This document shows, in pieces, positions 765 to 26,077 of a stretch of DNA of 32,339 nt. The first letter of the stretch is position 1. Each line of letters starts with the position of its first letter. The stretch covers positions 1 through 32,339 of the forward strand of contig JAFCCJ010000007.1 of assembly GCA_017610305.1 (NCBI GenBank). The letters run 5' to 3'. This DNA is from Candidatus Iainarchaeum sp. (GTDB taxonomy: Archaea; Iainarchaeota; Iainarchaeia; Iainarchaeales; JAFCCJ01). Under the pieces are notes generated by a model. The model was not told the DNA's origin. It saw only the letters and a program-made list of their open reading frames with translations, and ran no database searches. The translations under genes were made by a program, and so were the position numbers.

Positions 765-1985
765 CTACTTTTTAGCCCCTTCCAGATCCTTTATTTTCTT
801 GTCAAGCTCATTTATTTTCGCCTGGTATTTTGTCAGGTTCTTTTTGTAGGATGCCGCAGGCATAACCCCTTTGGTGAAATAATCCTCCTGCAGGGACTTG
901 ACAAGATTCATGGTTTTTTCCCGGTCATTCTTCAGCAACCTAACCTTAAGGTTATGTGAAAGCGCCGAATAGGCAAACATGCCCACGGTAACAACAATCA
1001 CAATAATTACAATGAAGTAAATCCAGTTATCCCTTAAGAAACACCCTATTTGGCCGGTCGCAACTATATTTTTGGTTATCTGCCCGGTATTGCCCGCAAT
1101 ATCAGACGCAAAAAACCTAATGGAAACAGAACCAGCATTATCGCAGCTCATAAGATGTTCAGATGAAAACAACCCCTCCCCGATTTCTGCCAATGGAATA
1201 TCCACCCCTGAAATCTCGGCCGTTATCTCCTTGAGATTCTCAATAGGTTTGCCATCGGAATATCTGACCCTGGCCTCAAGGGGAAGGGGCATGCTCAAAT
1301 CATATTCATGGACTTCAGGCTCCAATACCTCAATAATTATCAGCGCCGGTTCTATTTCCACACCCATACTTTGCTCCCCGCCAAAAAGAACATCTCTTTT
1401 CATACTTTGTGCGAGAACAATAAAATCCCAGGATGTTTTTTCAGTGTCAAATGGAATTACCAAACCAACGGAATAAATTCCGCCCCCATTGTTTTTCAGC
1501 TGCAATTTCTCCCCCTCAACACCCCAACTAATTACATTAGCATCAGTAACTGCCTCTCCGGCATCAAGAACCTTTACACTCAAAGTTAAATTCCCGCCCT
1601 TTTTATATTTTCCCGGGCTTGGGCTAAGGAAAGTTATCAGATAAAACGCACCCTCGTTTTTAGGATACATGTAAATAGGGGATTCATCTTCCTCTCCGCT
1701 TTGGGAAACCTTAAGGTCCCATTTGGCTTTTGGATCAAGGAAGCTGGTTTTATAATTTAGAAAATATCTTGAGTTTTTGTTGCAATATATCTTCTCTTCA
1801 TGCACATTTCTTTCTGAAGCGGTAATTGAAACAGTAAGCGCTGTGTCCTTAAGGCATTCTCCGGTTATTGAAATAAATTCCCCCTTCTCATAGCTTGCCT
1901 TATCAGTCTCAACACTAATCGCAAATGCAAACGTCGCAAGCAACACTATCGAAAGAATAAGGACAATTTTTCGCATAAAAATCAC
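765..1985 (-). CDS. Surface protein with Ig/MG-like domains, C-terminal TM helix and short cytoplasmic coiled-coil tail (paralog A)
   Basis: N-terminal signal peptide (MRKIVLILSIVLLATFAFA), beta-rich K/DxxYxxGExIxIxG modules, TM near C-terminus (WIYFIVIIVIVVTVGMFAYS), basic/helical tail. ORF start is GTG at 1985; ATG at 1976 is an alternative. Confidence 0.75.
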   Translation of the reverse strand: MIFMRKIVLILSIVLLATFAFAISVETDKASYEKGEFISITGECLKDTALTVSITASERNVHEEKIYCNKNSRYFLNYKTSFLDPKAKWDLKVSQSGEEDESPIYMYPKNEGAFYLITFLSPSPGKYKKGGNLTLSVKVLDAGEAVTDANVISWGVEGEKLQLKNNGGGIYSVGLVIPFDTEKTSWDFIVLAQSMKRDVLFGGEQSMGVEIEPALIIIEVLEPEVHEYDLSMPLPLEARVRYSDGKPIENLKEITAEISGVDIPLAEIGEGLFSSEHLMSCDNAGSVSIRFFASDIAGNTGQITKNIVATGQIGCFLRDNWIYFIVIIVIVVTVGMFAYSALSHNLKVRLLKNDREKTMNLVKSLQEDYFTKGVMPAASYKKNLTKYQAKINELDKKIKDLEGAKK

Positions 1986-4699
1986 GTTTCTAAATCTTTT
2001 AATTCACTCTCATATTTAAGCATTATCTTATCATATTCCCCGCGGTTAATGCTCCCCTCCTTGAAATATGCGGTCTGAATTTTTTTAATTTCCATCATGA
2101 CCTCCGTTTTCCGGTCTTTCTTGCCGGCCTTGTTTTTTTGGCGGATAAGGAACACAACAATTATTAGTGTCGCCCCCAAAATAATAATCAGATTTTCCTG
2201 CAATAGGTAAATAGGCGAAATCCCGCTGGAACTAAATTCCACCTCCTTTTCCACAGAATTCCCGAATAAATCATGGACACTTATCGAATAAACAAAGTCA
2301 TTGTTTGAGCTGACTCTGTATTCTCCAATGAATTCCCCAGGCCCTGCATGCCCCAGCCTTTGCATCGCAATAAACTCCTCCCCGACAGTTGCCTCAATAA
2401 ATGCCTCTTCGACAGGCCTGTTTCCCGAATAATTCAACCTAATATGGAATTTTATGAGGTCCCCTATGGCGAAATTACGCTGTTTTGGCTCTAGAATATC
2501 AATTAGGAGATCGGATTCAAGAATCTCTGCCTCAAAGGATTTATCCCCCCCAAAGAGCTCATCCCCAATGATTTTTAATGCCGAAATAACATATCTTTGC
2601 TTTCCAAGTTCTGCATCTATCTCCACCGGAACCATGGAGGAATAGCCTCCCCCTTCTTCAACAAAACTTATCAAATTATTTGATGCCGTAAGTATCTTGA
2701 CATCCGCCCCCTCAATCTTCTCCCCGGATTCATCAATAATCTCCAAAAACAATGCAATTGATTCTCCGCGATAGTATCTTTCCTTCGGGATTTCCATAAA
2801 ATTTATTTCCACAATATTCAAAATCGAAGGGGCCACAAAACTTATTTTCTGTTCTGCATGGCCCTTGTTGCCCTTGGCATCCTTAGCATCTGCAGAAATA
2901 AGCCAGTTTCCTGACGGGTCTGAAAAGTTGCTCTTATAAATTATCTCAAAAAAACCATCATCATCAGAATAAATTCTTTCCCCATAAATTATCTGCCCAT
3001 CTAAAGCAATTTCTATGTCAACACCGGTTTTTATGCCAACCCCGCCCTTTTTTACAAATCCCTTCAAAGTTATTTCCTCTCCGACAGAATAAGTATCTTT
3101 AACAGCCCTCATTTCCAGGGAAAGAGTTGATGCAACAACAACTTCTTTTGACACATAAATCTTATCTGAGTCTTTTGAAACAGTTATGATAATTGGTTTC
3201 ACCCCCCCTGAAACATCCCCTGAAACAAAAATTGTATTGCCATAAATCCCGTCATTTATGGACTTGTCATTATGTTCGCCATCATCCAGAAGAGTCACTT
3301 CGCCAAAAAAGCCCTTTGCCACAACATCCGCCCCGAGAACGGTGACATTCCCGTCCAACAACTGCAGATTGAGAACAGGCTCACTCCCCAAAAGAAAAAA
3401 ATCCCCTGCCTGGGGAGCAATGACCTCAGCACTAAAAGGGGTTGCGCAATCAAGGGTGCAACTTTCCTCAGATTCTGCCGCTTCACATATGCCGTTTCCG
3501 CAACATTCAGCCTCAACCACATTTTCACAAACAAGGCCACTGCACTGCAGTTCCCCGCAAGTAGACCATTTTCCCTCACAACTCCCGCAATCGCCTGGGC
3601 AACTGCATCTTGTTTCATCCCCATCACAGGTTCCATCTCCGCAGCTTGATGAACTCCAACACACCGCATCGCATTCCCCCCCATCAACACAAATATCCGC
3701 AGTTCCTGAATCCCCATCATCACAATCTGCGCTTTTTGAGCATTCAGGCGCACACAATTTGTTTTCGCATTCCGACATGCAGGTTCCCGCAAAAAGGCAA
3801 CTATCTGCTGTAAAGGGATTGCTGTCCAAACAATCCTCATTGCTGTTGCAGGCAACTAGGCAGCTCTCGGCGGAGCAGTAAGCATCGCATTCCCCTGCAT
3901 TAATGCATTGGTTTGCGGTCAATGCGCTTCCATCATCACAATCGCTATTGAATTTACATTCGGTTTTGCACTCAATGTTTGAGCAGCTTGCATCACAGCT
4001 GCCAATATTCAGGCACACATCCTCGGTTAACGGATCATCATCATCACAATCCTCATCTGTGCCGCAATTAATGCTCTCTCCGCAAAGATTGAACTGAATT
4101 ATCCCCGCGCTCCTTACATTGTATGCGGTAAATGTCCGCCCTTCTGAGGTTTCCCACACAGTATTTATGCCATCGCCGCCCTCATCCAGATACAGCTTTG
4201 CCCTTCCCCCGCCATTTATCGAATTGTATTTTAGCACAATCTTAAGTTTGTGCCTTGCCTCAATCAAGGCAGACACCGGAAGTTCGGCAAAAGATTCCTT
4301 CTCGGAATTATTGGGAAAGGCAACCCAGTCAGATTCAACAAGCAATTCCTCGGTGCTGTTCAAAGCATCAAGTTCATATAACGCCCATTTCCATGAACCG
4401 GAATCATTTGAAATTCCCATATCTGAAAACCAGACATAAACCCTGCCGGAAATCAGGAGACTCTGGGAAAAACTGCTCGAATACCATCTCGCCCATTCAT
4501 ATTCCCCGATTTTAGTATTTACTGAAAGATCGGCCTTGGCAGAACCCGCATTTGGCGGGGAGCTGTTCATCGAATAATAAGGCGCCTCAGGCGATGTTTT
4601 TGTGCCCCTTAACCAGAAAACATTTACCGATGCAGATGCATAGGATGACAACATGAGAATGGCAATCAAAATAACAAACCAGAGAGGGTTAATTCTCAT
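1982..4699 (-). CDS. Large surface protein: N-terminal domain, Asp/Cys-rich repeats, Ig-like domains, C-terminal TM and cytoplasmic tail (paralog B)
   Basis: Signal peptide; repeats of CxxxxDCDDxxxxTxDxCxxxGxCxxxC; LLDDGEHNDKSINDGIYGN module; TM ENLIIILGATLIIVVFLI; tail IKKIQTAYFKEGSINRGEYDKIMLKYESELKDLE. Overlaps neighbours at start and stop codons. Confidence 0.8.
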   Translation of the reverse strand: MRINPLWFVILIAILMLSSYASASVNVFWLRGTKTSPEAPYYSMNSSPPNAGSAKADLSVNTKIGEYEWARWYSSSFSQSLLISGRVYVWFSDMGISNDSGSWKWALYELDALNSTEELLVESDWVAFPNNSEKESFAELPVSALIEARHKLKIVLKYNSINGGGRAKLYLDEGGDGINTVWETSEGRTFTAYNVRSAGIIQFNLCGESINCGTDEDCDDDDPLTEDVCLNIGSCDASCSNIECKTECKFNSDCDDGSALTANQCINAGECDAYCSAESCLVACNSNEDCLDSNPFTADSCLFAGTCMSECENKLCAPECSKSADCDDGDSGTADICVDGGECDAVCWSSSSCGDGTCDGDETRCSCPGDCGSCEGKWSTCGELQCSGLVCENVVEAECCGNGICEAAESEESCTLDCATPFSAEVIAPQAGDFFLLGSEPVLNLQLLDGNVTVLGADVVAKGFFGEVTLLDDGEHNDKSINDGIYGNTIFVSGDVSGGVKPIIITVSKDSDKIYVSKEVVVASTLSLEMRAVKDTYSVGEEITLKGFVKKGGVGIKTGVDIEIALDGQIIYGERIYSDDDGFFEIIYKSNFSDPSGNWLISADAKDAKGNKGHAEQKISFVAPSILNIVEINFMEIPKERYYRGESIALFLEIIDESGEKIEGADVKILTASNNLISFVEEGGGYSSMVPVEIDAELGKQRYVISALKIIGDELFGGDKSFEAEILESDLLIDILEPKQRNFAIGDLIKFHIRLNYSGNRPVEEAFIEATVGEEFIAMQRLGHAGPGEFIGEYRVSSNNDFVYSISVHDLFGNSVEKEVEFSSSGISPIYLLQENLIIILGATLIIVVFLIRQKNKAGKKDRKTEVMMEIKKIQTAYFKEGSINRGEYDKIMLKYESELKDLET
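3445..4095 (-). repeat. Tandem Asp/Cys-rich protein repeats (coding) in paralog B
   Basis: About five units like CGTDEDCDDDDPLTEDVCLNIGSCDASC / CKFNSDCDDGSALTANQCINAGECDAYC, then CGDGTCDGDETRCSCPGDCGSC. Confidence 0.8.
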
Positions 4700-7600
4700 C
4701 AGATATCTTCCCCTAGAAACTTGAACTTAATGTCCAGATTGAAAGGCTTGTGCCTTTGCAGGAAAGAAAGGTTCTTTTTCAAGTCCTCAATCTCAGTTTC
4801 ATAATCCATTATCAGCGAATTATAGTTGCGCTTGTCCATGGTGGCATCCTTGAAATACTGGGTTTGCGCATCTTTTATCAGTGCAATTATCTCTCTCGCT
4901 CTTTTCTTCATGAAGAAAACCTTCCTGAAATAGTTAAGGTAGATAAATGCCACAAATGCCACAACCACCCCCACAACAGCAAGAATAATTGCAGGGAGGT
5001 AAAACTCCCTCACATAATGCCATATCGAAATTCCTGAAACTTCCAGCCCAATACTTCCTGCCTGTGAGCGGTTTCCATGCTCATCAATGGCGGAGAATTC
5101 CAGGAGTATATTCCCCGAATCCGATTCCTCAATTAAATATGTTCCTGCATAAACCCCGTTTTCTATAGACCTAAGCACAACTGACTTACCATTTACATTT
5201 GCATCTACTGTGCTTTTTGTCACCGGCTCATCATTGGGGTAAGTGAGCCTAATCTTAATCAGCAGATCCTCCCCAATTTGGTAATGGGTGGTGCTTGGCT
5301 CAAGCAGTTTGTAAAGTATTTCAATAGCCATCACATCTATTGAGGTTTCAGTTCCCCCGCCATGTGTTGTGGCTCCGTCCACTTTTAGGGCAATAACCTT
5401 GAATGTGTGCGTCCCGATTTCGGAGTCAAATTCAATAGGAACTGCCCCCATATATTTGCCGCCATCAATCTCCCTGAAATCTATTTTTTCGCCACTTGGG
5501 CTAATTGTTGAAACCGAGGCATCAGTTATAAGGGTGCCTCCCTTGTCCTTAACAGTTGCAATTAATTCAACACTTTCCCCCCTGCGATATGTTGTTTTGT
5601 TCAGGTCTTCCAATTCGACCTCGAGAAAAGAGGTGATGTCTGGCGAGGCGAACTCAACGTCCTTTTGTATAAATCCAAAGTTTCCATTTTGGTCAGAGCT
5701 GTAAACAGTTATTGACCAGGTTCCTGAACTATCGAGGAAACTGCTATGATAGTCAAATTCATACCTTCCATCTACTAAGGAGGTAAGCTGTTTCTTGTAA
5801 AGTAACCGCCCACCGGCAATAATATTAACATCCAACCAGTTCTCAAATGGCGAATCTTTCCTTTTCAGAAAACCAAAAACCTCAATTACATCCCCAACAT
5901 TGTATCTTTCCTTGCTTGTGGTGAGTGTAAGGTTAAGGCGGGGTGAAACAAAATAAGTTTCAACAAGCAAGCCATCCCTGTCTAAAAATTCCGCCTCAAT
6001 TGTTACAGGATAGCTCCCCTCCTTCACATTATCAAGAACAGTAAATGAATTTGCATAAATATTGTCCCTGGAGATTCCATCATCATGTTCCCCGTCATTA
6101 AACAGGGGAAACTCCCCAAAAAATCCTTTTGCAATTACTTTTGCATTTGTGACCTCGAGATCGTCAGCAGTCACAGAAACTTTTATGGTTACATTCTCGG
6201 CCCTAATAATCGGTGAATTTGTGGGAGATTCAATGGCGGTTATTTTAACAACCCTTGGCTTACAATCGGTTGCGCAATTTGAATAATCCTCCCCGCTCTC
6301 ACACACGTCATTTCCACAACATCCAAATGTCTTAATAATTTTGCAGGAATGCCTGTCGCAGCCATAGTCAGTACATGTTCCTGAAGTGTTTCCTGTACAG
6401 CTCCCGCAATCGCCTGGGCAATTGCATTTGGTTTCATCCTCATCACAGCTTCCATTCCCGCAGGTTGTTGAATTCCAACACACGGCATTGCACCTTCCCA
6501 GCCCAACACAAACATCCGCCGTTCCTGAATCCCCATCACCACAATCCGAATCAGAGGAGCATATAGTTGAACATGTATTGTTTGAGCATAAAGCCCCACA
6601 TTGCCCCGCATTCTTACACACGTCATTGGTTAGCAAAACACCATCATCACAATCGGAATTGCTATAACATGAAATATTGCATACTGAGTAAGAACAGGAA
6701 GAACCACATTCCCCTGCATTGATACAGCTGTCAGTGGTTAAAGGATTCCCGTCACCACATTCGGCATCTGATCCGCATCCAATAACACATTCGCTTGAGT
6801 TGGAACAGCTTGCCTGGCAGCTCCCTGCATTATAGCAGGTATCCATTGTTCCGGGATTTTCATCATCACAATCACTGTCCTCGCTGCAGCTAACGGTGCA
6901 GGCCGAATTTATGCAACTGGAATCAATAGTTCCCGCACCAACACAAGTGTCGGTAGTCAATGAATTACTGTCATCACACTCCGCATCATTGTTGCAGGTT
7001 ATCACTGAATTCTCATTGGTACAATATGCCGAACAAACATCCGCATCATGGCAGATATCGATTGTAAATGGATTTTCATCATCACAATCAGTATTGATTG
7101 AGCAAGGGGCACTGCTGCACATATCAGCTGCAGAAATTATGGTGCTTCTTATGTGCTCAATATTGTAAGTATTTCCGTGAGGGTCATTAAAAGAGAATGA
7201 ACTATCCCCGTCATATTCATCAACCTTTAATTCAATCCTGCCGGAAGAAGAGCTGGCAGAGTATTCAATTACTCCCTTTATCCTGTGGCTTGACTCAAGT
7301 AAATAAGGTGTTTCAATCTCGCTCTGCAATAAAAGGTCAGAGAAGCTCTCGGGGATATCAATCAAATCACTTTCCATTATTTTTGTACTCTCCCCGCTGG
7401 TTGGATTAAAATCATAAACTAAAAATCTTATCTGCGCAGAATCATTTGTTGAGGATATCCTTGAAATCCATGCCCAACCGGTTCCGGATATTATCTGGTT
7501 TTCCACCAATGGAAAGCTGTACCATCTCCCAAGTTCATATGTTCCTGAACTAACATTTGTGCTCAGGTCGGTTATGGCAGAACCCGCATCAGGCGCAATA

Positions 7601-7749
7601 AACGAAGATTCATAGTATGTATCTCCCTCAATAAGGATTGAGTAATCCGACCCCCGCCCATAGGCAACTATGTCGGTAGCAGATGCATTAATAGCTAAAA
7701 GCAGAATCGCAAACCCGGCCAGAATCTTAACACAGTTATTCCTGAACAT
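4699..7749 (-). CDS. Large surface protein, same architecture as paralog B (paralog C)
   Basis: Signal peptide; N-terminal domain alignable with paralog B (PDAGSA..DLSTNVSSGTYELGRWYS vs PNAGSAKADLSVNTKIGEYEWARWYS); more Cys/Asp repeats; DGEHDDGISRDNIYANSF module; TM YLPAIILAVVGVVVAFVAFIYL; tail LIKDAQTQYFKDATMDKRNYNSLIMDYETEIEDLKK. Confidence 0.8.
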   Translation of the reverse strand: MFRNNCVKILAGFAILLLAINASATDIVAYGRGSDYSILIEGDTYYESSFIAPDAGSAITDLSTNVSSGTYELGRWYSFPLVENQIISGTGWAWISRISSTNDSAQIRFLVYDFNPTSGESTKIMESDLIDIPESFSDLLLQSEIETPYLLESSHRIKGVIEYSASSSSGRIELKVDEYDGDSSFSFNDPHGNTYNIEHIRSTIISAADMCSSAPCSINTDCDDENPFTIDICHDADVCSAYCTNENSVITCNNDAECDDSNSLTTDTCVGAGTIDSSCINSACTVSCSEDSDCDDENPGTMDTCYNAGSCQASCSNSSECVIGCGSDAECGDGNPLTTDSCINAGECGSSCSYSVCNISCYSNSDCDDGVLLTNDVCKNAGQCGALCSNNTCSTICSSDSDCGDGDSGTADVCVGLGRCNAVCWNSTTCGNGSCDEDETKCNCPGDCGSCTGNTSGTCTDYGCDRHSCKIIKTFGCCGNDVCESGEDYSNCATDCKPRVVKITAIESPTNSPIIRAENVTIKVSVTADDLEVTNAKVIAKGFFGEFPLFNDGEHDDGISRDNIYANSFTVLDNVKEGSYPVTIEAEFLDRDGLLVETYFVSPRLNLTLTTSKERYNVGDVIEVFGFLKRKDSPFENWLDVNIIAGGRLLYKKQLTSLVDGRYEFDYHSSFLDSSGTWSITVYSSDQNGNFGFIQKDVEFASPDITSFLEVELEDLNKTTYRRGESVELIATVKDKGGTLITDASVSTISPSGEKIDFREIDGGKYMGAVPIEFDSEIGTHTFKVIALKVDGATTHGGGTETSIDVMAIEILYKLLEPSTTHYQIGEDLLIKIRLTYPNDEPVTKSTVDANVNGKSVVLRSIENGVYAGTYLIEESDSGNILLEFSAIDEHGNRSQAGSIGLEVSGISIWHYVREFYLPAIILAVVGVVVAFVAFIYLNYFRKVFFMKKRAREIIALIKDAQTQYFKDATMDKRNYNSLIMDYETEIEDLKKNLSFLQRHKPFNLDIKFKFLGEDI
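6265..7130 (-). repeat. Tandem Asp/Cys-rich protein repeats (coding) in paralog C
   Basis: About six to seven units like CSEDSDCDDENPGTMDTCYNAGSCQASC, then CGNGSCDEDETKCNCPGDCGSC. Confidence 0.8.
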
Positions 7750-7813
7750 TTTATCCTATATAGTATGTTTTTGTGTTTAAATTACTTTTCCAGTAGTAGA
7801 AACAGAGCATCAT

Positions 7814-9190
7814 CTAAAACTTAATTTCTTTGAATTTCTTCAGCTCAGATTCCATAATTCCCCTAATCTCTTCAAGCCTTTCCTCAGATTTAGCCTCATA
7901 CCTTACAATAATTTTCGGCTGTGTATTTGAGGCCCTAACCAAACCCCAGCCATCTCCAAAAAGAACTCTCGCACCATCAATATCAATAACCTCGTGCTTT
8001 TCCTTAAAAATTTCCCTTAACTTTTCAACAACCTTAAATTTCACATCATCGGCACAATCAAGCCTTATCTCAGGGCTGGAGTAATATTTCGGCATTTCCC
8101 CGATTATTTCCCCCAAATTCCTTTCACTTCCGGAAAGAATCTGCAATAACCTTGCGCCGGAATAAATTGCATCATCAAACCCAAACCAATTATCTGCAAA
8201 AAACATGTGCCCTGACATTTCCCCCGCCAGTTTTGCCTCGATTTCCTTCATCTTGGCCTTTATCAGCGAATGCCCGGTTTTATACATCAATGGCTTCCCA
8301 CCCAGTCTTTCAATTTCCTCAGGAAGCAGCTGGCTGCATTTGACCTCAAAAACTATGGTGGCGCCAGGATTATTCTTCAGTACTTCTCTGCTGTAAAGCG
8401 CCAGCAGTTTATCCCCCCAGACAATTTCCCCCTTTGCGGTAACAACACCAATCCTGTCACCATCACCATCAATCCCTATCCCCAAATCCGCATTTTCCTT
8501 TTTCACCCTGGCGATCAAATCCTGCATCAGTTTCTCTTGAGTAGGGTCAGGCAAATGGTTGGGGAATGAACCATCCATCTCACAGTAAAGGGGAACAATC
8601 TCTGCACCAATTTCCCCCAAAACCTTTACGGCCATTGGCCCCGCAGTTCCATTCCCACAATCAAGAACAACCTTTAATTTCTTTTTCAACTTAATTCGTT
8701 TTTTTATTTCCCCAACATATTCTTCGTCAACATTTTTCTCGCTCAGCTTGCCATCACCCGAAGGAAATTCGCCCTCCTCAATAATCTTTCGAATTTCCTG
8801 AATCTGTTCCCCAAAAAGTGCATCCTTCTTGTTCAGTAATTTAAAACCATTAAATTCTGGCGGATTATGCGAGGCGGTAACCATCACCCCGCCATCAACA
8901 TCCAATGTGTTCACGGCATAATACAAAACAGGTGTCGGCACCAAACCAACATCAACAACATCCAAACCTGTTGAAATAATCCCATCAATTAAATTTTTGG
9001 AAATCCTTTCACTGCTGGGCCTGTTGTCCCTCCCAATGGCAATCTCCTTTCCGCCATTATTAATTATGTAGAAGCCAAAGGCCTTTCCCAGCGCAGTCAC
9101 AAGCTCAGGATTAAGTTCTCCCTCAGCCAAACCGCGAATATCATACTCCCTAAAAATTTCAGAATTAAAATTCAAAATTATCACACTCAC
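7814..9190 (-). CDS. Phosphomannomutase/phosphoglucomutase family
   Basis: FREYDIRG N-terminus, phosphoserine loop TASHNPPEFNGFKL, metal loop DGDGDRIG, sugar loop GEMSGHMFF, C-terminal RASNTQPKIIVRYEA. Confidence 0.92.
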   Translation of the reverse strand: MSVIILNFNSEIFREYDIRGLAEGELNPELVTALGKAFGFYIINNGGKEIAIGRDNRPSSERISKNLIDGIISTGLDVVDVGLVPTPVLYYAVNTLDVDGGVMVTASHNPPEFNGFKLLNKKDALFGEQIQEIRKIIEEGEFPSGDGKLSEKNVDEEYVGEIKKRIKLKKKLKVVLDCGNGTAGPMAVKVLGEIGAEIVPLYCEMDGSFPNHLPDPTQEKLMQDLIARVKKENADLGIGIDGDGDRIGVVTAKGEIVWGDKLLALYSREVLKNNPGATIVFEVKCSQLLPEEIERLGGKPLMYKTGHSLIKAKMKEIEAKLAGEMSGHMFFADNWFGFDDAIYSGARLLQILSGSERNLGEIIGEMPKYYSSPEIRLDCADDVKFKVVEKLREIFKEKHEVIDIDGARVLFGDGWGLVRASNTQPKIIVRYEAKSEERLEEIRGIMESELKKFKEIKF

Positions 9191-9633
9191 TCTTTGAAAA
9201 CAAGTTGCCCGGTTTCTGCAGTTTTCTTAACATCAACACCCATTTCACCTAATTTTCGAATTCTGTCAACAACAATCTGATAGTCGGTACCAGCACCAGA
9301 TTTCACCAATTCTTCAGGACTTTTTAATATCTTTTCCATATCTTTATGTTCAGAACTTTCGGATTTTTTAGAATTTATAAATGTTTTCATATATAGTTCC
9401 CCAAATCTTTTGCCCTCATTTGTTCGCCATTCTTCATCAAAAAACTTAACAAGATTATTACAATATCCAACAATATCCTTTACCTTTCCTTGAGCACTGG
9501 GTTTAAACCTAAACAAAGGGGCACCCAGAAGTTTTTTGTGCAGATCATCCACCCTCTCACGATGTTTTGGGTTTCCTCCAGGTAAATGTCCCCTACGTCG
9601 TTCCATCATCCCTGCCAAGTAATCACCAATCAA
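9187..9633 (-). CDS. Hypothetical protein, translationally overlapping the downstream phosphohexomutase
   Basis: 148-aa ORF overlapping the next start; ORF start is TTG, with ATG at 9609/9606 as alternatives. No family recognised. Confidence 0.55.
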   Translation of the reverse strand: MIGDYLAGMMERRRGHLPGGNPKHRERVDDLHKKLLGAPLFRFKPSAQGKVKDIVGYCNNLVKFFDEEWRTNEGKRFGELYMKTFINSKKSESSEHKDMEKILKSPEELVKSGAGTDYQIVVDRIRKLGEMGVDVKKTAETGQLVFKE

Positions 9634-9686
9634 AATAAGTCACAAGAAGTTAATAAAACTAAGGTCAAGCCCAGAATAAAAAATCC

Positions 9687-9858
9687 AAAAAAAATAGTCC
9701 CCGAAGGGATGCATTGATTTTAGAGTCTGCAATTCCGAAGAACCACAAGTCCCAAAACCAACACAAAAGGCATTGATGTTCAAATTAAGCGAAAATTCCG
9801 AAGAATTTCTTTTGTCTTTTCCGAAGAAAAGACCGCCTAATTCCCCCACCAATACCAA
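9687..9858 (-). ncRNA. Candidate structured RNA or mRNA leader with four C(UUCG)G-capped hairpins
   Basis: Minus-strand hairpins: GTCTTTTC-TTCG-GAAAAGAC (9814-9833, 8 bp perfect); AAATTC-TTCG-GAATTT (9793-9808, 6 bp); TTGTGGTTC-TTCG-GAATTGCAG (9727-9748, 9 bp with G-U pairs); TCCC-TTCG-GGGA (9698-9709), then TTTTTTTT (9694-9687). TATA-like TTAAATAAA lies upstream at about 9876-9888. Confidence 0.45.
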
Positions 9859-9980
9859 TTACTATTATCTACCTAATTTTATTTAACCCTATTTTCTTAG
9901 CAATCCAAACCGCCAAACCTTCCTTCAGGAATTTTTCCGAACCAATTTTGTTTAAATCCACTTCCCCTTTTTAATTCCCT

Positions 9981-10577
9981 ATGCTGGTTGTTGGTTTAAC
10001 AGGGGGAATTGCCTCTGGAAAAACATTGGCTGGGGAAGAGCTCCAACGCCTGGGCGCGAAGCTCATAGGCTGCGATAAAATAGTGCATCTGCTTTATGAA
10101 AAGGAAGATGTGAGGGAAAAAGTAATCGTCGAATTCGGAAAAGAGGCCGTAAACGAAAGGGGCACAATCAACAGGAAAAAACTCGCGGCAATCGTTTTCA
10201 GTGATTCTGAAAAACTGAAAAAACTGAATTCAATAGTGCATCCCCTTGTTTTTACAGAAGTTGAAAAAAGAATCAAAAAATTAAAGGAAGAAAATTTCGA
10301 GGGAATTGTTGTTGTTGAGGCCGCGGTCCTCCTTGAATCAGGGATGCAGGAATCCTTCGACAGGGTTATTGCGGTAAATTCCCCGAAGGAAAAGCGCCTG
10401 GAAAGGCTTATCTCCAGGGGGCTTTCCAAAGAGGAGGCAAATGAAAGAATCAGTTCCCAAGCAAGCGATGGAGAACGGGTTAAATTGACCGACTATTTAA
10501 TTGATAATGATAAGGGAATCAATAAATTAATTACGGAGACAAAAAAGATTTACAATAAATTGGAGGACTTGCTGTGA
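9981..10577 (+). CDS. coaE: Dephospho-CoA kinase, bacterial type
   Basis: MLVVGLTGGIASGKT P-loop, GAKLIGCDKIVH, IVHPLVF, VVEAAVLLESG: CoaE signatures. Confidence 0.92.
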   Translation: MLVVGLTGGIASGKTLAGEELQRLGAKLIGCDKIVHLLYEKEDVREKVIVEFGKEAVNERGTINRKKLAAIVFSDSEKLKKLNSIVHPLVFTEVEKRIKKLKEENFEGIVVVEAAVLLESGMQESFDRVIAVNSPKEKRLERLISRGLSKEEANERISSQASDGERVKLTDYLIDNDKGINKLITETKKIYNKLEDLL

Positions 10578-11050
10578 GAAAGGCCATTTACCCCGGAACA
10601 TTTGATCCAATAACTTTAGGGCATCTTGATGTGATTAAAAGGGGCGGCAATTTATTTGATGAATTGGTTGTGGCAGTAACAACAAACCCCAACAAAAAAA
10701 CCCTGTTTTCGCTTGAGGAAAGGATTGAACTGATTGAAAAATCGGTTTCAGGAATGAAAAACATAAGGGTTAAGGGCTTTAACTCCCTGCTTGTTGATTT
10801 CATGAAAGGGGAAAACTCCACAATAGTCCTACGCGGGCTAAGGGAAGTAAGTGATTTCTCCAGTGAGTTCCAGCACGCAATAGTGAACAGGAAACTTGAT
10901 GGGGATATTGAAACTGTTTTTGTGATGACCTCAGAAGATTACTTCTACCTGAATTCCTCACTTGTAAAAGAAATCTCCTCCTTTGGGGGAAATGTTTCCG
11001 AATTTGTCCCTGAACCGGTTAAGGAAAAACTAAAAGAGAAATTCAAATAA
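10574..11050 (+). CDS. coaD: Phosphopantetheine adenylyltransferase, bacterial type
   Basis: GTG start overlapping the coaE stop; AIYPGTFDPITLGHLDVIKRG, VLRGLREVSDFSSEFQ, SSLVKEISSFGG. Confidence 0.93.
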   Translation: MRKAIYPGTFDPITLGHLDVIKRGGNLFDELVVAVTTNPNKKTLFSLEERIELIEKSVSGMKNIRVKGFNSLLVDFMKGENSTIVLRGLREVSDFSSEFQHAIVNRKLDGDIETVFVMTSEDYFYLNSSLVKEISSFGGNVSEFVPEPVKEKLKEKFK

Positions 11051-11551
11051 TTAATTTTCCAGTTTTTGTTTTATCACATTAACCAATTTCTTGAGAATTT
11101 CTTCAGAAATTTCAAAATCATTGTACGGAGCATAATTCTTTCCCCATTTTCCATCCTCAAACACAATTCCTTCAAATCCCCTTGAGTTTTTATACCTTGG
11201 AATAATGTGCAGGTGCAAATGAGTCGCAACATTTCCTAATGCCGCATAGTTGAACAAATCAGGCCGGAAAAGTTCATTCAACACATTCCTTACTTTTCCA
11301 CCAATCTCAAACAATTCTCCCTTCTCATCTTCATTCATATCCATAAAATCAACGGCATCTTCTCTCTTCGCCCAAAGGTAAACCCTGCCAAGATAGCGCT
11401 GTTTTTTGTGTAAATAAAGAGTCCAGTGTTTATACTCCTTTATTGGCAATTCCTTAAATCTTTCAAATACGTCCGTCATATCTAAGAATTCCAAAGCAGA
11501 AAGCTTTAAATACTTCAAGGATTTCTTATAGTAAGAAGTACTATACTTCAT
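11051..11551 (-). CDS. HIT family (histidine triad) protein
   Basis: HLHLHIIPRYK triad motif; size consistent with HIT proteins. Confidence 0.85.
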   Translation of the reverse strand: MKYSTSYYKKSLKYLKLSALEFLDMTDVFERFKELPIKEYKHWTLYLHKKQRYLGRVYLWAKREDAVDFMDMNEDEKGELFEIGGKVRNVLNELFRPDLFNYAALGNVATHLHLHIIPRYKNSRGFEGIVFEDGKWGKNYAPYNDFEISEEILKKLVNVIKQKLEN

Positions 11552-11575
11552 GATTCATTATTTTGATAACAAATT

Positions 11576-11588
11576 AAAAGGAGGTTAT
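11576..11588 (+). promoter_or_regulatory. Strong Shine-Dalgarno for pilin 1
   Basis: AAAAGGAGGTTAT just upstream of ATG at 11594. Confidence 0.75.
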
Positions 11589-11593
11589 AGAAA

Positions 11594-12040
11594 ATGTTTG
11601 ATAAAAGAGGACAATCGGCACTTGAATACCTGATGACCTATGGTTGGGCATTGGTTGTGATTGTGATTGTTGTTGCCGCGTTATTTGCGTTCGGTATCTT
11701 CAATCCGCCAGCAGCCGCACGATGTGCAGGCTTGGATAAACTGCTATACAAGGACCACGCAGTAGATGCAGTAGGCACAGGCATAACCCTTGCAATGGGC
11801 AATGGTGCAGGCAGCACAATTGATGTAACATCTGTTGCATATGGTGGAGATTTCGTAGGTGGAGTAGACACAGATACCCCCATCAACAATATTGGGAGCG
11901 GAGCTGACTTCACACTCAATAATGAAACAGTATTCACTGCAGCAGTCACAGGAACCTACAATGGGACCATAACAATCACATATGATACTGACTCAGGAAT
12001 AACTCACATTGAGACAGCAACCTGCACAGGTACAGCGTAA
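11594..12040 (+). CDS. Type IV pilin-like protein with class III signal peptide (pilin 1)
   Basis: MFDKRGQSALEYLMTYGWALVVIVIVVAALFAFGIF: KRG|QSALEYL prepilin peptidase site plus hydrophobic helix. Confidence 0.88.
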   Translation: MFDKRGQSALEYLMTYGWALVVIVIVVAALFAFGIFNPPAAARCAGLDKLLYKDHAVDAVGTGITLAMGNGAGSTIDVTSVAYGGDFVGGVDTDTPINNIGSGADFTLNNETVFTAAVTGTYNGTITITYDTDSGITHIETATCTGTA

Positions 12041-12074
12041 AGGAACTAAGTTCCTTTACTTTTTCTATTTTTTT
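12037..12074 (+). terminator. Intrinsic-terminator-like hairpin plus T-tract after pilin 1
   Basis: GTAAAGGAAC-TAA-GTTCCTTTAC (12037-12059, 10-bp perfect stem, includes the TAA stop) followed by TTTTTCTATTTTTTT. Confidence 0.65.
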
Positions 12075-12135
12075 AAGTTCATCTAGCTTAGGCACAGCCA
12101 TAAATTTCCATTCAAATTCCGGCGATAAGGAAAAG

Positions 12136-12147
12136 AATTAAATAATA
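12136..12147 (+). promoter_or_regulatory. TATA-like box of pilin 2 (apparently leaderless)
   Basis: GAATTAAATAATAG about 20-25 nt upstream of ATG at 12164; no SD nearby. Confidence 0.5.
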
Positions 12148-12163
12148 GTTTGCATTTCTATAA

Positions 12164-12619
12164 ATGATGAATCAAAAAGCACAATCTGCACTTGAATACC
12201 TGATGACCTATGGCTGGGCACTGATTGTAATTATAATCGTTGTCGCAGCCCTGTTTGCTTTCGGAATATTCAATCCGCCAGCAGCCGCAAGATGTGCAGG
12301 CATGGATAAGTTGCTTTACAAGGACCATGCAGTAAGTGCGGCAGGCACTGCCATATCATTAGCTTTTGGCAACGGCGCAGGCAGCACAATTGATGTAACT
12401 GCCGTTGCTTTCGCAGGAGACTTTGCCGGAGGGGCAGATGCATCAACTATCTCAAACATCGGAAGCGGTGCCGACTTCGCAGTCAACAACACTGATGGCG
12501 GAGACACAGCATTCACTGCAGCAGTCACAGGAACCTACAACGGGACCATAACAATCACATATGATACTGACTCAGGAATAACTCACATTGAGACAGCAAC
12601 CTGCACAGGCACAGCGTAA
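12164..12619 (+). CDS. Type IV pilin-like protein with class III signal peptide (pilin 2), tandem paralog of pilin 1
   Basis: MMNQKAQSALEYLMTYGWALIVIIIVVAALFAFGIFNPPAAARCAG...; C-terminus TGTYNGTITITYDTDSGITHIETATCTGTA identical to pilin 1. Confidence 0.88.
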   Translation: MMNQKAQSALEYLMTYGWALIVIIIVVAALFAFGIFNPPAAARCAGMDKLLYKDHAVSAAGTAISLAFGNGAGSTIDVTAVAFAGDFAGGADASTISNIGSGADFAVNNTDGGDTAFTAAVTGTYNGTITITYDTDSGITHIETATCTGTA

Positions 12620-12624
12620 ATACA

Positions 12625-13629
12625 TTACACTAAAGTTGAGAATGCATTTGCAAGCAGGAATCTTATTCCAAAAAACAGAATAAATGAAACAATAAGGATT
12701 ATCGGGAAGTATTTAACGCCACCCTTTTCTTTTCCAGTATTAATCACGCCGATGGTTAGGGACGCAAATAGGCTGGTTGTAACAAGCATAATCATAACAA
12801 ACATTTGGACAAACTCAACACTTATCGGTTCCTTGTCACTGGAAAATTGGGAAACATTGCCGCCCATACTGCCAGGAATATTTGCGGTGTTTATTTCCGG
12901 CATGGTGGCCATTTGTTTGGTTAAAATTTCAACAATAAAGCTGCTTATGCCAAAAAGCACAGGCCCACCCAGTGCTGCCGCGAAGAATATGAGCATTATG
13001 TAAATCGAAATATTTGCCGCAATCTCCTTTCTTAACGCAAGCTGGTCCCTTAAATCATCACTCAGCTGGATAAGCAAATTCGCTATCTGGCCCCCGCTGC
13101 TTATCCCCTTCGAAACCAGCCACATGGTCCTCTCCAGAATGATTGACTTTATGTTCTTTGGAATTTCATTCAGTGCCTCCTCAACCCTTGCCCCGGCCAT
13201 TATTCTTTTGCTTGCATTCCTGAGTTCATCCTCCAATGGGCCAAATTCAGGCCTTGCAGATAAAAGCAAAGCCCTTTCAGTTGTCAGGCCTGATTTCATA
13301 TTTGATGCAACAAGCTGCAGGGCATCAGGGAGAATGCTCTCAACAAACTTCCCCTTTGATTCTGCTGCAATGCTCAGCCATAGGTAGGTTCCGCCCGTAA
13401 AAAGCAGGAAGAAGAAGGGAAATGCAATGAAATAAGGAAGTATCTGGAAAATTTCAACAAGATATGCAAGGAATAAGCTCAAAATCAAACCATAAATAAA
13501 AAGAAAACCAACAAACCTTTTTTCACTGATATCAATATTCAGATAATCCATCTGCTTTTTGAATGCATCCACGATGGAATTTGGGAGAATCGCAGTCAGC
13601 CTTTTGTATATCTCAACCATTTCACTCAC
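12625..13629 (-). CDS. TadC/GspF-like (T2SSF domain) pilus assembly membrane protein
   Basis: Multiple TM helices; cytoplasmic helical domain ESILPDALQLVASNMKSGLTTERALLLSA...GPLEDELRNASKRIMAGARVEEALNEIP typical of T2SSF. Confidence 0.85.
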   Translation of the reverse strand: MSEMVEIYKRLTAILPNSIVDAFKKQMDYLNIDISEKRFVGFLFIYGLILSLFLAYLVEIFQILPYFIAFPFFFLLFTGGTYLWLSIAAESKGKFVESILPDALQLVASNMKSGLTTERALLLSARPEFGPLEDELRNASKRIMAGARVEEALNEIPKNIKSIILERTMWLVSKGISSGGQIANLLIQLSDDLRDQLALRKEIAANISIYIMLIFFAAALGGPVLFGISSFIVEILTKQMATMPEINTANIPGSMGGNVSQFSSDKEPISVEFVQMFVMIMLVTTSLFASLTIGVINTGKEKGGVKYFPIILIVSFILFFGIRFLLANAFSTLV

Positions 13630-14521
13630 TCATTAAGTTTGGTCTCCTTGATTTCATAAATCCCAAAAACATGAACTGTGCCACTAGGATGAAGAGCAAA
13701 AGGAACCAAAAAAGCCATTCCCCTATGGACGTTTGGGGGAAAGTGGCCAGAATTATGATAAAAGTAAAGCCAAGTGCAGGAATTATCACCCCTAACATCA
13801 TGTAAATCAGGGACATAAGCCTCATTGCAGAACCATATTCCCTTATCTGGTTCATTTGTTCCTTGCCCATAGAATCCACCAATGCCCCCATTACAACACT
13901 CACATCCGCCCCTGCCTTAAGGCCATTTAATATCTGCCATACCGACCTCCTGAAAAAAAGTGAAGGATTATTTGTGGCCATTTCTTCCATGGCCTGCTCC
14001 TGCAGTTCCCCTGTATTAATCTTTTCAACTGTTTTTCTGAATTCTTTGCTCACTTCCCCAAAATCACCTTCCGAAACCATTGAAATTGCGTCAAAAAGGC
14101 TTACCCCTGATTTTATCTCAACCAGCATTGTCCTCAATGCATCTATCAAATTCCTTTCCAGGCCCCTTACCTTTTTCTTTACCTTTATTTTCGGGAATAT
14201 GCTCAACTGAACCATAATGAAAAGCCCAAGAAGAAGCCCGGCGGTAACTGACATAACTAGGGACATTACCAAATCCAGCTTAAATCCAACCGCAAACAGG
14301 AAAGTTGTAAGGGCACCAAACCCGGAATAGATAACTGCAAGCAAAAACATTATTGCCCCATATTGCTCAATGTTCAGGTCTATTTCGGCCTGTACCAATT
14401 CCATTTTTAGATATGGAAAAGCTCCGGCAACCTTAAAGCCAATGCCTATAAATCTGGAACTTAGATTGTAGAGAACCGGAAAGGGAAAGGGACTCATCGG
14501 TATGGATGTTTTTGGGTCCAT
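13622..14521 (-). CDS. TadC/GspF-like (T2SSF domain) pilus assembly membrane protein
   Basis: LERNLIDALRTMLVEIKSGVSLFDAISMVSEGDFGEVSKEFRKTVEKINTGELQEQAMEEMA plus several TM helices; overlaps the next gene. Confidence 0.85.
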   Translation of the reverse strand: MDPKTSIPMSPFPFPVLYNLSSRFIGIGFKVAGAFPYLKMELVQAEIDLNIEQYGAIMFLLAVIYSGFGALTTFLFAVGFKLDLVMSLVMSVTAGLLLGLFIMVQLSIFPKIKVKKKVRGLERNLIDALRTMLVEIKSGVSLFDAISMVSEGDFGEVSKEFRKTVEKINTGELQEQAMEEMATNNPSLFFRRSVWQILNGLKAGADVSVVMGALVDSMGKEQMNQIREYGSAMRLMSLIYMMLGVIIPALGFTFIIILATFPQTSIGEWLFWFLLLFILVAQFMFLGFMKSRRPNLMSE

Positions 14522-14525
14522 TGAA

Positions 14526-16028
14526 TCACAACTTGAAATCAGTGTCCTTTTTGACTAATTTCTTTATGTCTTCTGTATCCATGTAATATGTCGCCATTAT
14601 TCTCCCAACATGCTCTTTGTTCCTGTGGTTGTGCTTTACCATCCAGTCAAGAATTGTTTTTTTGGAGGCAATCTCCTTGTTTATCTCATCAATTGTAAGC
14701 CCGGTGTGCAGGGAAAGCTCATCATAAAATCTCACACTGTCAGAATGCTTGCCAATAACATCCTGCGCAGGCATCCACCTATAAAGGACATTTGCCTTTA
14801 TGGATTCCTTCTCCCCCCTTTTCTCAGGGACAAATTCGGCAAGTTCCAAAACCCTTCTAACACCCAATCTCCTGTTTCTGAACATCACAACATTCAAATG
14901 TACAGAATCAAGCATGCTTGGGGGCAGTTCAATCGGCGGATTTACAAGCCTTCTGATTGTCTCATCAGCGGTATTTGCGTGCACCGATGTATATACACTA
15001 TGCCCTGTATGCATCGCCTCAAATAAAACCTCAGCTTCCCTCTGTCTTCTTACCTCCCCAACAATAATCCTGTCAGGTCGCATCCTCAAACTGTTAACAA
15101 GGAGGTCAAGCATTGTCACCCCCCCTTTCCCCTCAGGATTTGGCTCCCTTGTTGTCATTGGTACCCAATGGAGAAAGTTAGGCAAAGACAATTCCCTTGT
15201 GTCCTCAATTGAAATAACCCTGTTATTTGGCTGGATAAATGGCATGCATATATTCAGGAAGGAAGTTTTCCCTGATGCAGTTCCCCCACTAAGAATGATA
15301 TTAAGTTCATACTGCATTGCAAGCCATATGATTGCCATAATATCTGAATTGGTGGTCTTGTTCTTTATGAAATCAACAACAGTCCATGGGTCTCTCTTAA
15401 AGCGCCTAATTGTAATTGTGTTTCCCTTGCCTGAAATAGGGAATAACGTTGCGTTTGCCCTGTCCCCTGTAATTAGGTGCGCATCAAGAAGTGGGTTAAG
15501 GATTGTTATCTGCTTGCCCACCCTTCTTGCAATAATGCTTGCATAATTTTGCACCTCTGCTTCAGGCTTTATGAATACATTGGTTTCCAGCCATCTAAAT
15601 TCCTTGTGGTAAACCCAGACAGGCTCTTTGGATGAATTAACAACAATCTCCTCAAGGTTCCCGTCGCTCAGCAAAAATTCTATCTTCCCCAACCCAAGCA
15701 TTTCACTCAACAGGATTCCTATAAGCGCATTCTTGGTCTCAAGGTCAAGGCTGGGCAATTTTCGGTTCATGATTGTAAGTGCCCTTGCCCTAAATTTTTC
15801 CTTAAGCTCCTCAATAAATTTTGGCTCTAGCATTCGTTCGGTCTGGATTTTGGTGTCCATTATAAGGTCTTTTTTTAAGTTATGCAGCATGGCTTCAGTT
15901 CCTTCCCCATATTCAGGGATGTCGAGCAAATAACTAAGGACATAACTCCCCTCCCTGTTGACAATGCTTACCTCTATTTTCACCCCTTCGGATTCCATAC
16001 TATACTTCTTCAAAAGTTTATCAACCAT
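14526..16028 (-). CDS. Type II/IV secretion system ATPase (TadA/VirB11-like)
   Basis: Walker A SGGTASGKTSFLN; VISIEDTRELSLP; LRMRPDRIIVGEVRRQREAEVLFEAMHTGHSVYTSVHANTADETIRRL. Confidence 0.95.
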   Translation of the reverse strand: MVDKLLKKYSMESEGVKIEVSIVNREGSYVLSYLLDIPEYGEGTEAMLHNLKKDLIMDTKIQTERMLEPKFIEELKEKFRARALTIMNRKLPSLDLETKNALIGILLSEMLGLGKIEFLLSDGNLEEIVVNSSKEPVWVYHKEFRWLETNVFIKPEAEVQNYASIIARRVGKQITILNPLLDAHLITGDRANATLFPISGKGNTITIRRFKRDPWTVVDFIKNKTTNSDIMAIIWLAMQYELNIILSGGTASGKTSFLNICMPFIQPNNRVISIEDTRELSLPNFLHWVPMTTREPNPEGKGGVTMLDLLVNSLRMRPDRIIVGEVRRQREAEVLFEAMHTGHSVYTSVHANTADETIRRLVNPPIELPPSMLDSVHLNVVMFRNRRLGVRRVLELAEFVPEKRGEKESIKANVLYRWMPAQDVIGKHSDSVRFYDELSLHTGLTIDEINKEIASKKTILDWMVKHNHRNKEHVGRIMATYYMDTEDIKKLVKKDTDFKL

Positions 16029-16063
16029 TCAAACACCTTTCACCTATTATCTCCTGTTTTGAA

Positions 16064-17722
16064 CTATTTATTCTTTTTCTTTTGTTTCTCCTGTAATTTC
16101 CTTGCCTTCTCCTCAGCCCTTTTCTTTTCCTTAATCACCTTTTGCATTTCATCATAACCCGGAATCTGCACCGTAACCTCACCAAATGCCGGGTATTTAA
16201 GTTCCAAAAGCCCCTCATCCTCAAGATCTGACAATAGCCCTGCACAGGTTTTCTTGTCTATCTTAAGCTGGGCTGAAAGTTTGCTCAATTTTAAATTCCC
16301 CTGCTGGTTAACAATGGAAATAATCTTGTCAAAATCGGTCACAATCCTGTGCTTCTTTATTTCTGTTGCGATTCCCTTTACCATCTCAACCTCTTTTGCA
16401 GATTCCTTAAATGCCTTTGGAACACCAACAATTCTGACCTGATTCAATCTCCTGTTTGCCTCCCTTTCCAAATCAATCAATGACACAAGCTTATTGAAGC
16501 TTTCAAGAGTTTTGTTGGTGTCAATATTCAGGACATCCTGTTCAAGTTCCTGTTCTGAGAGATTGTATCTCTTGGCCAGTTCAGTTATCTTATTCTCAAG
16601 TTCGCCAAGCCTTTCATCATCTATCTTGCCTCTTGCCTTTGCCCTTAGAATTTGGTGCACCTTAGTCTGGCTTACCGCCTTTTTTGTTTCGGTGGCTGTC
16701 ACAGGCGCAAATTCCCGGGCATTGTCAGCAACCCTTGGCGTTCCTGATTGCGCCTTTAGAATATTTCTCCTCCTTATCTCCAGAAGCTTCATCTTTTCCC
16801 TATACTCGAGGGTTTTTCTCCTGTACTCCTCCTCAGTAATCCTTCTCTTGAAAAAGTCCATGTTAAGGCTCTTTATGAGCTCTTTAGTAACGGTTATTTG
16901 CTCGTCAAAGTCCTCTATTTGGGAAACACCTACTGCCCCACCCCTAAAGACAGGGGCTCGCCTTATTGGTTCTGCCCTGGCAACAGCTGACGCGGGCATT
17001 TCAACAGCTGGTGATTTCTCAAATTTTGGGTTCTCAACAATCTTCGCCTTTTTTGGCTTCTCCTCAATCTTTTCTTCTTTCGGCTTTTCAACAACCGGCT
17101 TCTTTGCAGGCACCACTTTTTCAGCAGCGGGTTTTGACTCAATTTTCGGCAGGGTTATGGCCTTCTTCGTTTCATCAGCCTTCTTCTTGGTTTTCCTCTT
17201 TGCCCTTTTTCCTCTTGCCTTTTTCGCAGGTTTTGTTTTTTTCTCAACACCAAGGCTTCTTTCGAATTTGCTCCTTTTTCTGGCGGCTGGTTTTTTGGGA
17301 ATCTCTTTCTTAACAGTTTCCTTTTCAGGCTTTTTGTCCACAATCTTTTCTTCCTTAGGAGTCGACTTTTTCTTGTGGAACATCGGTTTTAGGAATTCAT
17401 CCTTTGGCGGAACCTTTTCCCCGCCCTTTTTTTGTTCATCAAGTTCCTTAACCCATTTGGGCTGTTTGGCCATTTCCCTCTTCTTTTTCTCAAGCCTTTC
17501 CAGCTTCAGCCGTGTTTCCTCAACAATTTGCTCCCTTCTGCCGGGTGGGGACGTCTTTGCCGGTTTTTTGGCCGTCTTTTCTACTGGTTTTTTGGCCACT
17601 TTTTTTGCCGGTTTGTCAACCTCTTTTTTCGCCTTAGCAGCATCAGGTTTCTTCCTGAACACTTTCCCAATACGGTCAATAAAAGTTGAAACTATTCCCT
17701 TCTTCTTAGCCATTTTCCTCAC
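16064..17722 (-). CDS. Lys/Ala/Pro-rich protein with central coiled-coil/SHOCT-like helical hairpin and C-terminal winged-helix-like region
   Basis: N-terminus histone-H1-like (KKVAKKPVEKTAKKPAKTSPPGRREQ); ELIKSLNMDFFKRRITEEEYRRKTLEYREKMKLLE; C-terminal FDKIISIVNQQGNLKLSKLSAQLKIDKKTCAGLLSDLEDEGLLELKYP. Confidence 0.75.
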   Translation of the reverse strand: MRKMAKKKGIVSTFIDRIGKVFRKKPDAAKAKKEVDKPAKKVAKKPVEKTAKKPAKTSPPGRREQIVEETRLKLERLEKKKREMAKQPKWVKELDEQKKGGEKVPPKDEFLKPMFHKKKSTPKEEKIVDKKPEKETVKKEIPKKPAARKRSKFERSLGVEKKTKPAKKARGKRAKRKTKKKADETKKAITLPKIESKPAAEKVVPAKKPVVEKPKEEKIEEKPKKAKIVENPKFEKSPAVEMPASAVARAEPIRRAPVFRGGAVGVSQIEDFDEQITVTKELIKSLNMDFFKRRITEEEYRRKTLEYREKMKLLEIRRRNILKAQSGTPRVADNAREFAPVTATETKKAVSQTKVHQILRAKARGKIDDERLGELENKITELAKRYNLSEQELEQDVLNIDTNKTLESFNKLVSLIDLEREANRRLNQVRIVGVPKAFKESAKEVEMVKGIATEIKKHRIVTDFDKIISIVNQQGNLKLSKLSAQLKIDKKTCAGLLSDLEDEGLLELKYPAFGEVTVQIPGYDEMQKVIKEKKRAEEKARKLQEKQKKKNK

Positions 17723-25150: not shown

Positions 25151-26077
25151 ATGGCACTGAAAGAAACAGTTTCAGAGCTCCCGCAGGAAAAGCTCAAGAA
25201 AACATCTGCAGAACAGACCATTCTTCGAAACCTGCAGGAACTGGAGTTAGAACTGGCTGAGGAGAGGGAAGACTCCCGTAAAAAGGAGTTAATAGCCCAA
25301 ATAAGCGAGCTTAAGAGCCATTTGGCTGCCGTTCAGGGCCCCACTTATTTTGACTTGGAGCAGGAAAATGAGGAAATGAAGCAGGAATTGAAGGAATTGG
25401 GCAAGAACCTTAAGCAGATTAAGAAGGAAAATTCCCTCCTGAAAGAGAGTTCTGGCTTTGTTTCCCTAAAAGAAGAGGTTGAGCCAGAGGAAACCCCGAA
25501 AAAGGAACTAAAATCCACCCTTTACAAATTGCTGCTCGGGAAATACTCAAATATTATAAATGATTTTGAAAAGAAAACAGTGGGGGAAATAAAGGGCCTG
25601 GTGAATTCCGAGGATTTAACTGTCCAGTCACTTTTGAATGATTTCAAGCCGGAAAACTATTCCTTTGAGGAAAATTACCTTAGGGCTGCCAAGGAAGTGC
25701 ATGAATTCATTTCAAAGGAGATTAATTATGTAAAATCCGATTTGGAAATAAATTTCTGGCTCTCGCCCAAAGAAATTGTAACATCCAAAATTGGCGATGA
25801 TGAAGACCAGGCGGTTTTCCTTTGCTCAATGCTTTTTGCGCTGGGGGATAAAAATGCAGAGGTCGTGATTGCGGAACTTGAAAACCTCTCAACACATGCA
25901 TTTGTGATCACAGAATTCAACGGGAAATTCTACCTATTTGACCCGGCACAAAAAGAGGACTTTGGAAAATTCTTAGGCGAAAAGAAAAATGTAATCGCAA
26001 ACTATTCCTTTGATAATTCCAAAATCAAAAGATTCCTCTACAAATTCAATGCCGAGAATTATGAGCAGTTTGTCTGA
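25151..26077 (+). CDS. Coiled-coil protein with C-terminal transglutaminase-like domain
   Basis: Long N-terminal coiled coil; AAKEVHEFISKEINYV...SPKEIVTSKIGDDEDQAVFLCSMLFALG...THAFVITEFNGKFYLFDPA matches the transglutaminase-like pattern. Confidence 0.65.
   Translation: MALKETVSELPQEKLKKTSAEQTILRNLQELELELAEEREDSRKKELIAQISELKSHLAAVQGPTYFDLEQENEEMKQELKELGKNLKQIKKENSLLKESSGFVSLKEEVEPEETPKKELKSTLYKLLLGKYSNIINDFEKKTVGEIKGLVNSEDLTVQSLLNDFKPENYSFEENYLRAAKEVHEFISKEINYVKSDLEINFWLSPKEIVTSKIGDDEDQAVFLCSMLFALGDKNAEVVIAELENLSTHAFVITEFNGKFYLFDPAQKEDFGKFLGEKKNVIANYSFDNSKIKRFLYKFNAENYEQFV

Follow-up and report, generated by a model that had tools for sequence, protein, structure and literature searches.

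Do the tails of archaeal surface proteins carry a module that is also found on a component of the pilus motor encoded beside them? Cultivated DPANN archaea depend on host-cell contact, and to our knowledge the organization of their surface adhesins and pili is poorly known. The window, i.e., the whole stretch of 32,339 nucleotides analyzed here, is contig C16 of a 1.24 Mb Candidatus Iainarchaeum genome; the nearest relatives of its secretion ATPase are found in Candidatus Diapherotrites/Iainarchaeota, GW2011_AR10 (AR10) among them. A two-helix segment of ~60 residues is common to three surface proteins (A, B and C) and a 552-aa protein of the pilus locus, all encoded on the minus strand. The relevant features are as follows:

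765–1985, minus strand: protein A, with a signal peptide, three Ig/MG-like domains, a transmembrane (TM) helix and a C-terminal hairpin (tail 777–959)
1982–4699, minus strand: protein B, with an N-terminal domain, Cys-rich repeats, Ig/MG-like domains, a TM helix and a C-terminal hairpin (tail 1985–2146)
4699–7749, minus strand: protein C, a paralogue of B, with a C-terminal hairpin (tail 4750–4941)
7814–9190, minus strand: phosphogluco/phosphomannomutase, upstream of C-B-A and in the same place in AR10, G004 and G015
11594–12040, plus strand: pilin with a putative class III type N-terminus (QSALEYLMTYGWALVVIVIVVAALFAFG), from direct sequence reading; position conserved
12164–12619, plus strand: second pilin, a near-duplicate of the first, from sequence reading; position conserved
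12625–13629, minus strand: TadC-like platform protein 2 (T2SSF)
13622–14521, minus strand: TadC-like platform protein 1 (T2SSF)
14526–16028, minus strand: FlaI/TadA-type secretion ATPase, directly downstream of the proposed adapter
16064–17722, minus strand: 552-aa cytosolic protein (proposed adapter), with a Lys-rich N-terminal half, a hairpin (16751–16924), a helical linker and a MarR-like winged helix
17760–24129, minus strand: remaining pilus operon, encoding 400-aa, 333-aa, 762-aa vWA, and 164-, 120-, 141- and 226-aa secreted or pilin-like proteins

C, B and A are three tandem minus-strand genes with few-base overlaps (B and the start of A share 4 bases), following the mutase gene. Their products are homologous across the Ig-like ectodomain, membrane helix and tail, and have a common architecture of signal peptide, ectodomain, single membrane helix and tail, in which the hairpin segment ends 0–16 residues before the C-terminus. 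In the 552-aa protein, which has no membrane helix, the hairpin is internal (residues 267–324). The platform proteins match PF00482 over its cut-off (E 2e-16 and 1.3e-15). The ATPase matches the archaellum ATPase model at E 1.3e-75 and the TadA model at E 5e-50, both below these equivalogs' own cut-offs; by its sequence, homology to the FlaI/TadA type is clear. In the pilins, an N-terminal QSALEYLMTYGWAL stretch was read by eye as a candidate class III signal peptide, and a family search returned no match for them. A transglutaminase-like 308-aa protein on the opposite strand (25151–26077) is conserved beside the pilus locus, and similarity to it was judged by eye in two family f4 proteins that carry an N-terminal TM segment and a hairpin (L331, L332).

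The original prediction held that the ends of the three surface proteins align with one another and with a segment of the 552-aa protein, and all four segments were found where it had placed them. Leave-one-out profiles built solely from window sequences, and thus containing the 552-aa segment, recovered A, B and C at E 4e-4, 8e-7 and 1e-5; the paralogy of A, B and C means that their tails do not count as three separate observations. A profile of A, B and C searched against their own genome did not match the 552-aa protein at E ≤ 10, so proof of the link needs more than the four window sequences. Inclusion of relatives made the match significant in both directions. Seeded with A/B/C only and grown on non-adapter proteins, a profile gathered 78 proteins from 3,087 pooled ORFs without adapters (the pool was drawn from regions surrounding hits and pilus loci; genome-wide searches were run separately) and matched the 552-aa protein at E 8.2e-7 and 16 adapter proteins at E < 1e-3. 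In the reverse direction, an adapter-only profile matches 20 of the 3,087 other ORFs at E < 1e-3, nearly all of them membrane tails. At E < 0.01, 22 of 25 pool proteins were tails already recruited from A/B/C, and two of the remaining three (L143 and L139) are membrane proteins too, in which TM segments are combined with a C-terminal hairpin. As these reciprocal searches avoid circularity, the A/B/C and adapter hairpins are assigned to one family, and the 552-aa protein does carry the surface-tail motif, although this could not have been concluded from the window alone.

To the own genome, a seven-row profile matched at seven places only up to E 10: the four window segments and three further tail proteins on contigs C8, C27 and C73; a 77-row profile added two weak matches. 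A KaiC-type ATPase gene (L177:8985–9857) lies immediately downstream of the gene for the tailed surface protein of contig C8. Across 53 Iainarchaeota (Diapherotrites) genomes of the same order, 96 matching proteins were found after removal of duplicates, comprising 78 membrane proteins, 17 orthologues of the 552-aa protein and one that is truncated at a contig end. The distance from TM segment to hairpin in the membrane proteins has a median of 14 residues, and 63 of the 78 tails lie within 30 residues of the C-terminus; adapter hairpins are internal. Weaker matches are mostly juxtamembrane too, for instance a membrane protein with a Lon/S16 domain and two-TM proteins that carry tandem hairpins, an arrangement present in several proteins; only two appear soluble. 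Outside the phylum, a juxtamembrane variant (KRxIDExxF) occurs in Altiarchaeota, Aenigmarchaeota and nanohaloarchaea, with a few soluble tandem forms. Searches of 77 members against Pfam, NCBIfam and PDB returned no family at convincing E-values, and literature searches yielded no description of the hairpin module or of the winged-helix adapter. Judged by sequence, the hairpin is a genuine and specific SHOCT-like module, unannotated and unnamed.

Two further observations concern the carriers. A common C-terminal stretch of ~50 residues, ending GYxPxVAxKVV and outside any named domain found here, follows the hairpin in L178:11146–14286 and L059:4555–5592. Small two-TM proteins with two tandem hairpins (L193:9088–9792, L328:1230–1982, L330:1486–2316) recur in several families.

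AlphaFold2 modeling of adapter residues 256–552 gave helices at 264–291 and 297–326 (pLDDT about 90–97) and a winged helix with pLDDT about 97. For protein A, modeled from an alignment of five sequences only, it gave Ig-like domains and a continuous helix (321–371) comprising the TM segment and the first hairpin helix, followed by a turn and a second helix (377–403; pLDDT about 81–88). In both models two amphipathic helices form a helix-turn-helix hairpin, with the turns at equivalent residues. A Foldseek search with A returned MG/Ig-like matches only (complement C3, SiiE) and nothing informative on the tail.

Within a DPANN-wide type IV pilus locus, the 552-aa protein is a core component, and the winged-helix gene lies directly upstream of the ATPase gene in most of the DPANN and Altiarchaeota loci examined. 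Paralogous secretion ATPases have its winged helix joined to their own N-terminus; because of these fusions, we propose that the 552-aa protein is likely a detached ATPase domain and hence an adapter. One such paralogue is encoded in this genome (L174:8000–9895, G000:C28). In 32 adapter homologues from other DPANN, membrane helices occur, for the most part ahead of the winged helix; Iainarchaeota adapters have no TM helix, and the hairpin is present in about 20 of 33. As for the orthologous pilus ATPases, they are interrupted near residues 255–277 or 305 in nine genomes. The five interrupted ATPases examined (L126:6277–10011, L127:7420–9432, L142:11721–14879, L165:10156–14763, L190:6001–9024) have intein splicing or LAGLIDADG matches, with apparently two inserts in the ATPase of G027 (L165).

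The gene order phosphomutase-C-B-A, CoaE-CoaD, pilin, TadC-TadC-ATPase-adapter is shared by this genome, AR10, G004 (with B-A instead of C-B-A) and G015, one from each of four families. Most tail genes are distant from the pilus locus, on other contigs or further away, so that the predicted linkage of tails to TadA/TadC loci holds as a conserved neighborhood in these four families and not in most. The expected co-occurrence of tails and adapters is weak and at most suggestive: Fisher's test gave p 0.003 for weaker tails and p 0.08 for strict tails, and on the tree the values lost significance (p 0.06 and 0.6). Strict presence/absence coupling of tails with hairpin-bearing adapters is unsupported on the tree. 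In AR10, G005 and G016, tails occur together with an adapter that lacks the hairpin, and in families f10 and f18 they occur in the absence of an orthologous pilus/adapter.

In families f1, f14 and f16, the tail of A is 58% identical vs. 34% for the ectodomain, and is more conserved than the TM segment also; over 18 sequences from more families, the values are 33% and 27%. In family f8, the surface proteins of G039 and of G023, the latter with Cys repeats like those seen here, end in adapter-type hairpins, which share about 50% identity with the adapters of other families and 53% with the window adapter. We consider these hairpins the best evidence that the two settings may share a function.

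Our best reading is that of a SHOCT-like juxtamembrane association module common to surface proteins and the pilus ATPase adapter. The single membrane helix of each surface protein would continue into the first hairpin helix just under the membrane; the adapter's winged helix would hold the ATPase, as the natural fusions suggest; and the adapter hairpin, carried on a flexible Lys-rich protein, is the same module as the tails. The hairpins would most likely associate, A/B/C mutually and with the adapter, as helical bundles, which would cluster the tailed surface proteins and tether the pilus ATPase beside them. We give this docking a probability of about 0.5. It is the most economical mechanism, in which we infer the hairpin–hairpin contact and the coupling to the pilus; the homology of the hairpins, the architecture, the conserved locus, the fusions and the predicted fold are results. 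Docking is favored by the reciprocal searches, the specificity of the profile, the confident models with equivalent turns, the place of the adapter gene before the ATPase gene, the fusions, the C-B-A linkage, the higher conservation of the tail in the close set, the f8 hairpins and the tandem copies, as well as by the TM helices of other-DPANN adapters where many Iainarchaeota adapters carry the hairpin. It is disfavored by hairpin-less adapters, families f10 and f18, the weak co-occurrence, the distant tail genes and the only experimental test of a SHOCT domain, which did not support oligomerization or self-association (PMC3581485). A role exclusive to the pilus is disfavored by f10 and f18, AR10, and the tails on Lon/S16-domain and small two-TM proteins.

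A less likely possibility is that the hairpin serves generally for juxtamembrane self-association or stabilization, with tails pairing among themselves and the adapter copy oligomerizing on the hexameric ATPase, so that surface proteins and pilus make no contact. Such a role would suit tails on diverse ectodomains (Ig/MG, Lon/S16, two-TM proteins), their presence in genomes without a hairpin-bearing adapter and the adjacent A/B gene pairs of many families; however, it accounts neither for the adapter-type hairpins of the f8 surface proteins nor for the fact that, at scale, the pilus ATPase adapter is the only soluble carrier. Less probably still, the hairpins bind a third common partner (membrane surface, platform protein or cytoskeletal element) that co-localizes their carriers without mutual contact. 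Residues conserved across all hairpin classes are consistent with this, and the replacement of the hairpin by TM helices in other-DPANN adapters would suit membrane targeting, but no candidate partner was seen, and bundles explain tandem copies equally well. A role of the 552-aa protein in regulating transcription of the pilus operon, with the hairpin as a dimerization arm, is very unlikely: the protein has the winged-helix fold of MarR-type regulators (a fold search gave MarR and Z-alpha domains at VIA-align Z about 11–12 over ~61 residues), yet the same winged helix stands at the N-terminus of paralogous secretion ATPases and is accompanied by TM segments in other DPANN. Convergence of charged helices into a generic coiled coil, suggested by weak, scattered Pfam and PDB coiled-coil matches and raised in the original prediction, together with a lack of enrichment near pilus loci, as the finding that would overturn it, is hardly credible and is refuted at the level of sequence specificity by the reciprocal profile searches, by reversed-profile controls (no matches for A2, one for A3) and by the 96 matches, which are membrane tails, adapters and one truncated protein only.

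Extending the docking of hairpins, we tentatively hypothesize, as a somewhat unlikely further step, a homotypic hairpin code by which external Ig/Cys-repeat adhesins recruit, and possibly gate, the ATPase via the hairpin-bearing winged-helix adapter. If true, it would connect the outside of an archaeal envelope to the motor in a way not described before. The hairpin and a winged-helix subunit resembling a detached ATPase domain suggest two concrete contacts, adapter–ATPase and hairpin–hairpin, in a pilus type conserved across DPANN and Altiarchaeota. The hairpin is also a name-worthy family for many proteins without domain annotation.

Among known systems, SHOCT (PF09851) is likewise a short two-helix hairpin. 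In most proteins SHOCT lies within 50 residues of the C-terminus, as compared with the tails and the internal adapter hairpins described above. The hairpin described here has about double the length of SHOCT (28- and 30-residue helices vs. a ~30-residue domain). Of the Gly and Glu that are strongly conserved in SHOCT, a Gly is seen within the A/B loop and a Glu among adapter-type hairpins, neither being near-invariant. At the curated cut-off of 27 bits, none of 27 genomes had a SHOCT member, and the model did not match the A/B/C tails and adapter of this genome at E ≤ 1. The SHOCT-like shape noted from the sequence thus stands as a two-helix hairpin, and SHOCT membership is rejected, as the hairpins fall below the cut-off. 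Hairpins of some S16-domain membrane proteins are matched near the cut-off by SHOCT and also by the hairpin profile; in L313:1863–4361 and its relatives, a Lon/S16 proteolytic domain lies outside and tandem cytosolic hairpins bridge to SHOCT.

The predicted secretion complex of arCOG02884 and arCOG01314, in the portion of its description available to us (PMC5898192), also has membrane-anchored Ig-like archaeal surface proteins; it differs in its MoxR ATPase, DUF4350 and 2 or 4 TMs, and that portion describes no shared cytosolic hairpin. The arCOG07564 protein of subclade 4F pili is, like the adapter, a cytosolic helical protein in a pilus locus; it is halobacterial and described in PMC4858521 only as a coiled-coil protein. 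The same archaeal pilus census does not contain the terms DPANN, HTH and Diapherotrites. The locus resembles the archaeal type IV, Tad-like pili of that census in combining a FlaI/TadA ATPase, TadC platform, pilins, vWA and secreted proteins, and differs from them in that a winged-helix adapter belongs to its core genes and tailed Ig surface proteins are encoded beside it.
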